Shown in pieces: positions 2,349 to 40,612 of a stretch of DNA of 64,000 bases (the stretch's first letter is position 1; each line of letters begins with the position of its first letter). Under the pieces are notes generated by a model. The model had not been told where the DNA came from and ran no database searches. It was given only the letters and a program-made list of their open reading frames with translations. The stretch spans positions 1 to 64,000 of the forward strand of contig NZ_JAEULZ010000038.1 of NCBI RefSeq assembly GCF_016793485.1. Direction: 5' to 3'. The DNA comes from Mesorhizobium sp. GTDB taxonomy: Bacteria; Pseudomonadota; Alphaproteobacteria; Rhizobiales; Rhizobiaceae. The translations under genes and the position numbers were made by a program.

Positions 2349-4367
<2,019 letters not shown>

Positions 4368-4386
4368 GTTTGAGTTGAGAAAAGAT

Positions 4387-4418
4387 CAAAAAGCCCGGCC
4401 ATCGCGCCGGGCTTTTTG
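4387..4418 (+). terminator. intrinsic terminator of rpoD
   Basis: Perfect 13-bp stem CAAAAAGCCCGGC / GCCGGGCTTTTTG with a 6-nt loop, 20 nt after the rpoD stop. The T5 run lies inside the 3' arm. The near-symmetry would let it also work on the other strand, but no minus-strand gene ends here. Confidence 0.93.
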
Positions 4419-4479
4419 CTTTAGGGGCATACGAATGGCCTGCCGTGTATCTGTGCGGCGTTTGTGATAAGCTCTGCCG

Positions 4480-37432: not shown

Positions 37433-37734
37433 TGTTCTCTAGCCTTTCGTTTTACGTCCCTGTCGGTTCCCGCGGCTAAGCCTCTGCGACTTGTCCAACC
37501 CGTCTAGACGGGAGAGAAAGGCGCATCTTCGAGACGGTCGAGAGCGGAGACACGGGAGGCCGAAGCGCTTCTGGCTTCATGAGGGGCAAGCCCCAACCCT
37601 CCGTTCAGCCCCCAGCAGGACCGGCAGATTGCGGCGGTCCATACAGGGGTAGGGCGGAAATGGCAAGCCCGGCCGGGCTGACCGGAGATCATGGCGCGGA
37701 TGCCGGCTTGCGCCGAAGGCTGAAATTACTGCCG
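37433..37734. other. gap between rpsF and the RiPP-like gene
   Basis: About 300 nt without a supported gene. It holds the upstream region of rpsF and a perfect 14-bp palindrome CCCGTCTAGACGGG at 37499-37512, about 67 nt before the rpsF start. No tRNA or other structured RNA gene is recognised. Confidence 0.5.
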
Positions 37735-37766
37735 AAAAAGAGAGGCCCGCAAATGCGGGCCTCTCT
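37735..37766 (-). terminator. intrinsic terminator of the RiPP-like peptide gene
   Basis: Perfect 12-bp stem AGAGAGGCCCGC (37739-37750) / GCGGGCCTCTCT (37755-37766) with a 4-nt loop, followed by TTTTT on the minus strand. It lies 30 nt after the stop of the 30-codon gene, showing that this tiny gene has its own transcript end. Confidence 0.92.
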
Positions 37767-37796
37767 GTATCTTCAAGAATATGGCCGATATCAGCT

Positions 37797-37889
37797 TTAG
37801 TTAATAAGCGTGTTCGGAGCAGCAGCAGTCACCGCCACCAGAAGGCCCTTCGAGGCCAGGGTCGGCTTTTCGTATTTGCGTTTCAACAT
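37797..37889 (-). CDS. putative RiPP precursor peptide with lasso-type leader motif
   Basis: A 30-residue peptide. After the start MLKR it reads KYEKPTLASKGLLVAVTA and ends in a short tail AAPNTLIN. The spacing Y-x2-P-x-L-x3-G-x5-T is the leader pattern bound by the B1/RRE protein in lasso peptide systems, with T at the -2 position of the expected cleavage. GGAGGGGG lies 7 nt before the ATG, and a terminator lies just downstream. The putative core lacks the Asp/Glu at position 7-9 needed for a lasso ring, so it is an orphan or different RiPP. No B1, B2 or C gene is in this window. An alternative frame over the same bases ends in GGGDCCCSEHAY. Confidence 0.6.
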   Translation of the reverse strand: MLKRKYEKPTLASKGLLVAVTAAAPNTLIN

Positions 37890-37985
37890 TGGATTCCCCC
37901 TCCACGGTAAGGTCAGCAAGGCTTGCATCCCCGTAGCAATCCATACTCAACTGCAGGATGCGTTTCAACAGGGCTGTTGAGCCGC

Positions 37986-38534
37986 TCACCGAAGTCTGCG
38001 ACGAAGCATGGCGGCGGCGGCGCAAACGACCTTCTCGACCAGCCGGCCTGCTTTGCCGAATTCCCTGCCGGCAATCCTCTTGTCCATGCGGGTGGCCGAG
38101 GATCCGTCCTCGTAGTGGACCGTCTTGACGCTGACAAACCGATAACCGGCGCTTTCGTAAAACAGCTTGGCCTCCGGGCTGTCCATCCTGACGTCGACGC
38201 GCATCAACCGGCGTCCGACGCGAACGGCTTCGCTTTCGGCTGCCCCCAGCAGTAGCCGGCCCAGCCCTTGGCGCTTCATCTCTGGCGTGATGGCCAGCGA
38301 ATGAAGATAGGCAGAGGGTTTACCGTCGTTGATATGAAACAGGCAGTAGCCGCAGACGTCGCCCCGGATTTCCGCAACCAGCGCTCTCAAGCCGCTGCGT
38401 TGAACGACAGACCGCCACAAATCGATTCCCAGCAGATCAGAACGGAACGACAGGGATTCGATGCGGCAAATCGCGTTTACGTCACCGGCCTCGGCCGGTC
38501 GAACGGTTGTTGAAACGCCGGGGATCTCAGTCAG
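37986..38534 (-). CDS. GNAT-family N-acetyltransferase without a canonical start codon
   Basis: The acetyltransferase fold is complete: TVRPAEAGDVNAICRIESLSF (first 20 or so residues), LRALVAEIRGDVCGYCLFH, the acetyl-CoA motif ITPEMKRQGLGRLLLGAA and SPEAKLFYESAGYRF, as in RimI-like enzymes. The first ATG/GTG/TTG in frame is TTG 38420, which would delete the first strand and helix. Going upstream, no usual start codon exists; CTG at 38534 (followed by TEIPGVSTTVRP) sits where a family Met would be. So the start is non-canonical or mutated. It lies 96 nt upstream of the RiPP-like gene on the same strand and might act on that peptide (inference). Confidence 0.7.
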   Translation of the reverse strand: MTEIPGVSTTVRPAEAGDVNAICRIESLSFRSDLLGIDLWRSVVQRSGLRALVAEIRGDVCGYCLFHINDGKPSAYLHSLAITPEMKRQGLGRLLLGAAESEAVRVGRRLMRVDVRMDSPEAKLFYESAGYRFVSVKTVHYEDGSSATRMDKRIAGREFGKAGRLVEKVVCAAAAMLRRRLR

Positions 38535-38677
38535 TTTTAATACCAGGTGCAGCGGGCCAAGAAGATTTGCGTCGACCGGCCAGACGGCCGACAGCGCATG
38601 GACGTGAAGGCCAGCCTAACGGTCGGCCGAAGCCAGATCAATGAATCCGATAGGCGGCAACCTGCTTCGGAACTCGC

Positions 38678-40612
38678 CTACACCCCCGCCGGCTTCGGCT
38701 GGTTCGGGAAGAAGCGCGGAGTCGTGCGCTGCTTGCCGAACAGTGCATCGTATTGCAGCAGACGGAAGTCGTTGATCAGCGGATCGACCAGTTTTTCCCG
38801 CGACCAGTCCTGCTTCTCACCGGTCGGCGAGATCAGCACGTGCCGATCGATGACATCGTATTCCGCGTCCACCCTGCCCAGGAAGCCTGTGTAATAGGGG
38901 TGCTCTATGCCGGCGGCCTTGAGCACCTTCAGCGGGATCAGCGACGGGCTGATCGAACCGATGTCTTTGGTCGCGCCATTCCGGTTCGACCAGACGACCA
39001 GCGGAGTCTCGCGGTGCTGTGCGAGCTTTGCGGCCTCCTCGCGCCGTGCCGGAACGGGTCCGGCCATGAAGCCGGTCTCTGTATAGGCCTGGTTGAGGGG
39101 CGGCAGGTGGTCGCCGAAAAATACGACGACGGTATGCCGTTCGCGCTTCTGCGCCCAATCGATCAGCCGCTGGAAGCTGCGATCGGCGTCCGCGATGCTC
39201 TCCGCATAGGTCTGGATCGACTTGCCGGTCCAGTAGCTGGCGACCGATTCGACCTTTACGCTCGGGTCGGCATAGCGGTTAGGCTCATAGGGGCCATGAC
39301 CCTGCAAGCTGACAGCGAAGGTAAAGAAGGGTCGTTCGGCCGCATCGGCGCGCCGGATGATCTCGTCGGTAAGCGAATCGTCTGAAACAAGCGGCCCCCG
39401 CGATCGCATCGGCGGCAGTTTCTCGATCGACAGGAAGCGATCGAAGCCGAAAGCGCCGTAGACGTTCTCGCGGTTCCAGAACCATCCCTCGAAGGGATGC
39501 ATGGCGGTCGTTTCATAGCCTTCGGCGCGGAAGAAGCTGGCGAGCGAGGGCACCGCCCCGCGCACATATTGCTGGTACGGGATGCTGCCATAGGGCAGGA
39601 AAGCGTTGGAAAAGCCCGTCAGAGCCTCGAACTCGACATTGGCGGTCATGCCGCCGAATTCCGGCGAGAAGACGGAGCCGGAACGCACGGCGCGCACGTT
39701 CTTCAACGGGTCAGGGGTTATTGTGGTCTGCGGAAGTTGCGTCGGATCCCATAGGGATTCGCTCATGACCACGATGATGTCCGGCTTCTCCTCTGGCATC
39801 GACACGCCCGTCGAGCCGGGCTCAATAGCGTCGAGCACCTCGTCGCTGTAGGCAGGCGGCGCAAGCACCTTGGCCATCGGCACGTTGAGCGCGAAAGCGA
39901 TGGCGAAGCCGTTGGAGGCGTAGTTCTCCTTCTGGTCCCACATGATGGGGATGATCTGCAGGCGGTCGCGTGTCCAGGAGAAGGTCGCGAAATCCATGAT
40001 CGACACGAAGAAGGCCAGCGCCGGCAGCACGACGGCGAGCCTTGCGGCGCGCATCCGCCAGCGGATCGGCGGACGCACGCGACGCCAGTAGCGCCAGGCT
40101 GCAACGAGCAGGAAGATCGACAGGACGCCGACCGCCAGGATCGCGATTGCCGTTCCCGGTCGATCGCGGATCAGCAGCGGCGCCAACTCCATGATCTGCC
40201 GGGAATAGAGAAAGTCGGTGGGATAGAGCGGGTCGCCGAGATAGGAAATCTTCTGGTTGCCGATGGCTGCCAGAAGCAGGGCGATCGGAGCTATGAACAG
40301 CAACCCGATGTGTCGGCGGCCGAACAACGCGTCGAAACCGACAAGCAAGAGTGCGAAAAGCACCACCGTGGTCCAGCCTGGCCTGAATGGCTGGCTGAAG
40401 AAATCGACGGTCTGCCGCCATGAGCCCCGCGCGATCAGCTCGATCAGGAAAACAAGCATCGCTGACAAAAGGACTGTGACCAGCAGCGATCCGGCGCACT
40501 CAAACGCCCGGCGCAAGCGCCAGCCCTTCCTGGGCCGGAGGGTTGCCCCCGACTCTTCGATCCAATTCTGATTTGCCAACTTAGGGTTCCTCGGTAGGCG
40601 ATAGAACGTCAT
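38678..40612 (-). CDS. LTA-synthase/sulfatase-like membrane phosphotransferase
   Basis: A 644-residue protein. The N-terminal half has about five membrane helices, and the periplasmic half is an alkaline-phosphatase/sulfatase-fold domain: DIIVVMSESLWDPTQL (metal and nucleophile region), SPEFGGMTANVEFEALTGF with the likely catalytic Thr, SLQGHGPY and VVVFFGDHLPPL. Relatives transfer phosphoglycerol or phosphoethanolamine to teichoic acids, glucans or lipids. In a Gram-negative rhizobium, decoration of periplasmic cyclic glucan or lipids is a likely role (inference). Confidence 0.88.
   Translation of the reverse strand: MTFYRLPRNPKLANQNWIEESGATLRPRKGWRLRRAFECAGSLLVTVLLSAMLVFLIELIARGSWRQTVDFFSQPFRPGWTTVVLFALLLVGFDALFGRRHIGLLFIAPIALLLAAIGNQKISYLGDPLYPTDFLYSRQIMELAPLLIRDRPGTAIAILAVGVLSIFLLVAAWRYWRRVRPPIRWRMRAARLAVVLPALAFFVSIMDFATFSWTRDRLQIIPIMWDQKENYASNGFAIAFALNVPMAKVLAPPAYSDEVLDAIEPGSTGVSMPEEKPDIIVVMSESLWDPTQLPQTTITPDPLKNVRAVRSGSVFSPEFGGMTANVEFEALTGFSNAFLPYGSIPYQQYVRGAVPSLASFFRAEGYETTAMHPFEGWFWNRENVYGAFGFDRFLSIEKLPPMRSRGPLVSDDSLTDEIIRRADAAERPFFTFAVSLQGHGPYEPNRYADPSVKVESVASYWTGKSIQTYAESIADADRSFQRLIDWAQKRERHTVVVFFGDHLPPLNQAYTETGFMAGPVPARREEAAKLAQHRETPLVVWSNRNGATKDIGSISPSLIPLKVLKAAGIEHPYYTGFLGRVDAEYDVIDRHVLISPTGEKQDWSREKLVDPLINDFRLLQYDALFGKQRTTPRFFPNQPKPAGV

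Follow-up and report, generated by a model that had tools for sequence, protein, structure and literature searches.

A probable stand-alone precursor of a cyclase-free, lasso-derived RiPP system in the rpsF flank of a rhizobial genome

The closest described systems are the LPPs of Bacillota and the phosphorylated lasso peptides. According to the parts of the LPP article consulted (Popov et al. 2026, PMC13381572), the precursor has a YxxP leader that is bound by a discrete RRE, and Ser3 of the core is phosphorylated by an HprK-like kinase, no cyclase being involved; the peptidase is SpI-like, deletion of the NTP transferase led to no visible change, a core carrying S3T was not phosphorylated by LppK, and LPPs are stated to be restricted to Bacillota. 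In the bsf system of Bradymonas (PMC10368454, also consulted in part), BsfK, helped by B1, phosphorylates Ser3 of a lasso precursor core and B2 removes the leader. B1, B2 and an HprK-like kinase acting on core Ser3 are common to bsf and the paeninodin group, the latter as presented in the same parts of PMC13381572.

The gene studied here is a 30-codon ORF in a 64,000-nucleotide stretch of rhizobial DNA, the whole of which is called the window. It probably encodes a stand-alone precursor that is served in trans by the enzymes of a lasso-derived RiPP system without a cyclase, and its family is best read as the counterpart, in alphaproteobacteria and with B2 as the processing protease, of the LPPs of Bacillota. 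As far as the consulted parts allow comparison, the two share a discrete RRE, a YxxP leader, an HprK-like kinase, an NTP transferase and variable cores, and neither has a macrolactam cyclase; core Ser3 is phosphorylated in LPPs, and Ser is enriched at core positions +2 to +5 here; the combination of RRE, HprK-like kinase and NTP transferase without cyclase that characterizes LPPs is found here as well, with the kinase recognized by weak matches below cut-off. However, the LPP leader motif YxxPxVLxHQxIxFETxxS is absent, only YxxPx followed by a hydrophobic residue being common to both; the peptidase is a lasso-type B2 rather than SpI-like; the hosts are mainly rhizobia rather than Bacillota; and the cores have a median of 10 residues, against 45 in the one LPP studied. 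The rhizobial family also differs in its many scattered precursors and in the AMP-ligase/GNAT or formyltransferase-like genes of some loci. In comparison with bsf, whose leader has Y-17, P-14 and L-12 (PMC10368454, same parts), the window leader has these residues at the same positions if it is cut after VTA, yet bsf and the paeninodin group keep their cyclase, and bsf forms a Gly1-Asp8 ring, neither of which is seen in the rhizobial family.

The initial annotation had raised the possibility of a new RiPP class. This is too strong: for Bacillota, PMC13381572 had presented the cyclase-free logic of RRE, HprK-like kinase and NTP transferase in 2026. In the open-licence PMC literature, which was the scope of the search, no description of this leader family in rhizobia was found; a term look-up in the accessible parts of PMC7470986 and PMC12710340 returned no mention of Mesorhizobium.

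The precursor gene and its surroundings

The features of the locus are as follows.

37797-37889, minus strand: precursor ORF of 30 amino acids, MLKRKYEKPTLASKGLLVAVTAAAPNTLIN plus stop, first among the window ORFs with the leave-genus-out leader HMM
37824..37889, minus strand: leader of 22 codons with Y-17, P-14, L-12 and T-2, ending in VTA, as placed by family alignments A1 and A2
37800..37823, minus strand: predicted core AAPNTLIN, the cut position following the family and lasso B2 practice
37896-37903, minus strand: Shine-Dalgarno sequence GGAGGGGG, with a 6-nt spacer (AATCCA) to the ATG
37735..37766, minus strand: intrinsic terminator, with a hairpin at 37739-37766 (12-bp stem, 4-nt loop) and a T run; -27.1 kcal/mol for the fold of a 44-nt stretch holding the hairpin
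37986..38537, minus strand: GNAT acetyltransferase gene, start uncertain (PF00583, 1e-13), directly upstream of the precursor
37668..38690, no strand: stretch with terminator, precursor and GNAT gene, absent from relative G002 (blastn of the window against L031-L033; genus search)

The ORF lies beside a ribosomal-protein operon, in the rpsF flank. The thirty-codon gene with its own Shine-Dalgarno sequence and terminator, as first annotated, is borne out: the terminator stem starts 30 nt past the stop and is followed by the T run, while the Shine-Dalgarno sequence is present at six rather than the claimed seven nucleotides from the start codon. A simple terminator scan did not list this hairpin, the likely reason being that the T run after the last pair is just four long.

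Across the window's ORFs in all six frames, the annotated leader spacing Y-x2-P-x-L-x3-G-x5-T turns up a single time, against 0.025 occurrences expected from amino-acid composition. A leader HMM trained on 45 leaders, all from named loci of genera other than that of the window, placed this ORF at the top of the 1386 in the window (E 0.0017, 14.5 bits; runner-up E 1.3); these leaders were gathered with profile A2, which includes the window leader, so that their choice, although not their letters, is slightly circular. The predicted core has Thr5 as its sole hydroxyl residue, no Ser, and, as had been noted, no Asp or Glu to act as ring acceptor.

That the ORF arose by chance is very unlikely. 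It is very short, and in a single-sequence search the next matches in its own genome reached only E 0.009 or weaker; yet a chance ORF would hardly combine the low motif expectation, the first rank among window ORFs, at least 17 kin in the same genome, a Shine-Dalgarno sequence and a terminator.

The surrounding 1.02-kb stretch varies among same-genus genomes. G002 has 35 nt between the conserved flanks in its place, G001 holds about 1.25 kb of other content at the site, and in G003, where only the near side was reached, differing sequence adjoins the flank. The GNAT gene shares this stretch with the precursor; when searched by tblastn (E<=1e-3) against the collected loci, it matched only two copies of the same place. 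The nearest other precursor on the contig is 256 kb away.

The leader family and its cores

At least 18 leader-bearing ORFs are present at eight loci of the window's own genome (G000). Besides the window ORF, these comprise one each at 246 kb (fused to a Peptidase_S74 domain), 303 kb and 313 kb of contig C21 and at 294 kb of C9, two near 562 kb of C49, a ten-member array near 631 kb of C49, and one beside the enzyme genes of C13. A protein search brought up the S74 fusion as the second leader; a 21-leader profile then produced seven own-genome matches, and reading those stretches raised the count to at least 18, with up to 12 candidates scored per genome; the C13 precursor, at 7 bits only with the first profile, was counted for its place and its later-profile score. 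Another weak own-genome match (L003) was discarded for an internal stop, and plasmid searches gave no match.

The leader residues, whose conservation had been proposed as a check, are conserved in relatives: Y-x2-P-x-L...VTA is common, followed by short, hypervariable tails. With an exact-letter HMM (34 exact rows), 135 distinct precursors were found in the examined loci, 18 of them in G000; the leader ends in VTA in 68 and has T at -2 in 84. In NCBIfam, the window peptide had no match and three of five kin peptides had matches to lasso_cyano or lasso_leader_L3 below cut-off, and in Pfam seven of eight leaders matched DUF5972 alone, also below cut-off. The initial reading of a lasso-type, RRE-bound leader with Thr at -2 is supported by the leader family together with the RRE and B2 of the enzyme cassette described below.

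Several arrays were seen. The ten-precursor array of C49 (L122:4970-6747) adjoins a gene that looks, by eye, like a tyrosine recombinase (3283-4470), together with sequence similar to the 3' end of a tRNA, although ARAGORN found no whole tRNA in L122; this array is possibly a genomic-island edge. G002 has a ten-precursor array whose members differ in their tails and run opposite to the enzyme genes (L044:11228-13163). In the arrays of G226 (L129:7348-8574) and G283 (L130:6987-7894), most members share a VT-x-I-W-V-P-like core, whereas cores elsewhere are variable.

The 135 precursors, one more having dropped out, yielded 128 short cores with a median of 10 residues. Ser is found at +2 to +5 in 102 of these, against a mean of 62.6 (sd 5.0, maximum 82) in 5000 shuffles, although the cores are mutually related; once similar ones had been taken out, under an earlier HMM version, the count is 63 of 84, against 39.3 (sd 3.9, maximum 54). 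That earlier version was built on 41 leader rows, seven of which deviated from the exact letters, and with a looser splitting pattern it gave 131 precursors (one of 132 lost) and 124 cores, 99 with Ser at +2 to +5; a first count of 78 cores had left out 13 leader matches that did not fit the splitting pattern. All 128 cores contain Ser or Thr, and 117 contain Ser, but this presence is weaker evidence than the placing, since all the cores are rich in these residues. Asp or Glu occurs at core positions 7-9 in 17 of 128.

Of the 11 Ser-less cores, the window core is one. This bears on the alternative that the window gene is a relic, i.e., an extra precursor copy that came into the rpsF flank by duplication, no longer matures and has lost the usual core Ser. 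The absence of the stretch from G002 and the other content at this site in G001 and G003 fit such a history, whereas the intact ORF, the retained leader Y, P, L and T, the strong Shine-Dalgarno sequence, the dedicated terminator and the remaining Thr speak against it. We regard a relic as unlikely but worth keeping in view, given the absence from G002, the Thr5-only core and the one tested LPP kinase, which does not use Thr3; a decoy role of this one copy is conceivable too. Counting likewise against the precursor reading are the Ser-less core, with LppK unable to act on S3T (PMC13381572, in the parts consulted), the absence from G002, the isolation of the gene by 256 kb, enzymes on other contigs and a modest 14.5 bits.

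A further alternative holds that the leader is an RRE-dependent tag of general use, with payloads of many kinds (the Peptidase_S74 domain among them) and with tail chemistry secondary. It draws on leader-S74 fusions in G000 (PF13884, 3.4e-7), G002, G367 (two) and G404, in all five of which S-D-x-R-L-K is kept. Yet leader and S74 occur together in only 4 of 394 genomes, all of which also carry B2, and the median core has 10 residues with a placed Ser, which makes a general tag improbable. Fusions lie at L047:9794-10111 (on C21 of G000), L123:4890-5213, L124:7675-8103 and L125:5567-6534. An S74 match in G433 overlapping part of the leader positions proved, on reading, to have no leader.

The enzyme cassette and the missing cyclase

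As first annotated, the window is free of B1-, B2- and C-type genes, as judged with the families searched; the own-genome matches are all on other contigs. The search of the remaining genome that had been suggested recovered both an RRE protein and a B2-type protease, in line with the proposal of a precursor for a distant maturase. The set is split in G000. Contig C13 holds together the RRE (PF05402, 3.1e-12), the kinase, the nucleotidyltransferase (PF14907, 8.3e-23), an AMP-ligase (AMP-binding, 2.9e-48), a GNAT (PF13302, 4.3e-13) and one precursor, and C46 holds B2 alone (NF033537, 53 bits against a cut-off of 33; Cys and His conserved). The RRE profile matches the lasso B1 structures TfuB1 (2.9e-11) and TbiB1 (1.2e-8), with its invariant Asp aligned to theirs, and this residue would be the equivalent of LppB D70. 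The kinase is placed by weak matches to HPr kinases in the P-loop region that stay under the cut-offs of both Pfam and NCBIfam.

The cassette consists of RRE, B2, HprK-like kinase and nucleotidyltransferase (NTP_transf_5), in some cases with AMP-ligase and GNAT or a formyltransferase-like gene. Among 23 cyclase-free loci from ten genera, the RRE and the kinase are present in all, and the nucleotidyltransferase and an adjoining B2 in 22 each, G000 being the exception in which B2 lies apart from the RRE. Eleven loci have an AMP-ligase and the same eleven a GNAT (from a single clean query); three have a formyltransferase-like gene, one of them Pfam-checked (PF00551, 2.6e-11). A B2 profile scan of named genomes gave 92 relatives, of which 80 were kept: RRE and kinase occur in 80/80, nucleotidyltransferase and B2 in 79/80 each, a formyltransferase-like gene in 12/80, and AMP-ligase plus GNAT in 6/80. 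At 15 bits, a leader ORF lies within up to 9 kb in 38 of these loci and in 42 none was found (39 and 41 with the exact-letter HMM). Precursors also occur inside cassettes, e.g., ten in G002. The hosts are mostly Mesorhizobium, in addition to Hoeflea, Aquibium, Chelativorans, Ahrensia, Notoacmeibacter, Kaistia, Roseovarius, a Rhodospirillaceae bin and a bin titled Phycisphaera.

A possible counterpart of the MsbA-like transporter of LPP clusters is an ABC-ATPase-like cluster seen in seven loci of six genera. A second PqqD locus of G000, C21:134030 (L084), lies among glycosyltransferases and was judged a different cassette; at L084:3764-8219 the PqqD-domain gene has nucleotidyltransferase-like, HprK-like and glycosyltransferase-like neighbours, named by eye. 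AMP-ligase-like matches in genus g121 were set aside: the one scanned was propionyl-CoA-ligase-like, and none of the five was counted.

Leader and B2 occur together. Of 394 genomes of the window's family, 19 have a leader match at E<=1e-3, and every one of these carries a lasso-type B2 (PF13471) over the Pfam cut-off, which is found in 28 of the 394 (hypergeometric 6e-26; by genus, 9/9 within 15/109, 1e-9), a comparison that is slightly circular in that some A1 rows were taken from B2 loci. Together with the named loci, this supports the suggested spread in rhizobia. In the genus of the window, G000, G001 and G002 have PF13471, and G003, the only one of the three relatives with no leader match, has no B2. 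The remaining nine genomes with B2 comprise three with weak leader matches (G213, G273, G326), G292, whose cassette has leader-like ORFs visible only on reading the locus, and five with true lasso loci (G069, G127, G221, G237, G321). Ten genomes match the leader solely at E 0.0012-0.096; given that B2 does not pass the cut-off in six of them and that the lasso-bearing G321 is a seventh, the matches in these seven look like chance. PqqD-domain proteins alone are unspecific, being present in 22 of 61 genomes, with two in G003.

A true lasso precursor with a distant cyclase would account for the leader spacing, the Thr at -2 as in lasso leaders, and the B1- and B2-type genes supplied in trans from C13 and C46. 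However, the asparagine-synthetase-like macrolactam cyclase is missing, and this contradicts the lasso reading. The lasso-cyclase HMM matched none of 24 cyclase-free loci and all six true-lasso control loci (419-1094 bits), five of which had served to build it; one control cyclase was checked (NF033535, 783 bits). Its sole match in the 80 named loci, L213 at 179 bits, was taken as an ordinary asparagine synthetase. The genome of the window, whose assembly scored 100% complete, has a single, partial PF00733 match, a protein that we take to be MnmA/TrmU by its signature. Moreover, the eight-residue tail has no Asp or Glu, and only 17 of the 128 family cores have one at positions 7-9. A lasso product is therefore very unlikely.

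Lasso clusters of the same bacterial family (L178-L181, L183, L184) likewise have RRE, B2 and HprK-like genes, and two leaders there follow the same YxxPxL pattern, but the cyclase is present in all six, unlike in the cassettes of the precursor family. The B2 and RRE trees both split the six lasso loci from 103 others (support 0.989 and 0.999, respectively).

Proposed maturation and its meaning

A stand-alone precursor served in trans hence stays the preferred reading, and maturation could proceed as follows. The discrete PqqD-like RRE of C13 would bind the leader through Y-x2-P-x-L, the neighbouring HprK-like kinase would phosphorylate a Ser or Thr close to where the core begins, and B2, the transglutaminase-like Cys protease of C46, would cut after V-T-A; these three steps have precedents in the systems above. 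The NTP_transf_5 protein may modify the peptide further, and, as a guess from gene content, AMP-ligase and GNAT may acylate the product, with the formyltransferase-like protein in the acylating role in some relatives. The core would stay linear for want of a lasso cyclase. Core phosphorylation is on balance favoured for the family; for the window copy, where Thr5 could stand in for Ser, it is conceivable but not what we would expect, and the expression and processing of this copy are likewise presumed from its signals and kin.

More tentatively, one set of RRE, B2, kinase and nucleotidyltransferase may act on a scattered precursor repertoire, with at least 18 members in this genome, to yield short linear peptides that bear a phosphate close to the N-terminus and an acyl or formyl N-cap replacing lasso closure, while some leaders carry a self-cleaving S74-type payload; this would be a combinatorial system of alphaproteobacteria.

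If the precursor reading is correct, whether a single kinase and protease set serves the scattered repertoire becomes testable, as do the roles of the kinase, nucleotidyltransferase and acyl-transfer genes. Precursors acting in trans would be missed by neighbourhood-based RiPP mining, and the range of cyclase-free relatives of lasso peptides would grow beyond Bacillota to take in rhizobia, many Mesorhizobium species among them, where another protease is used.
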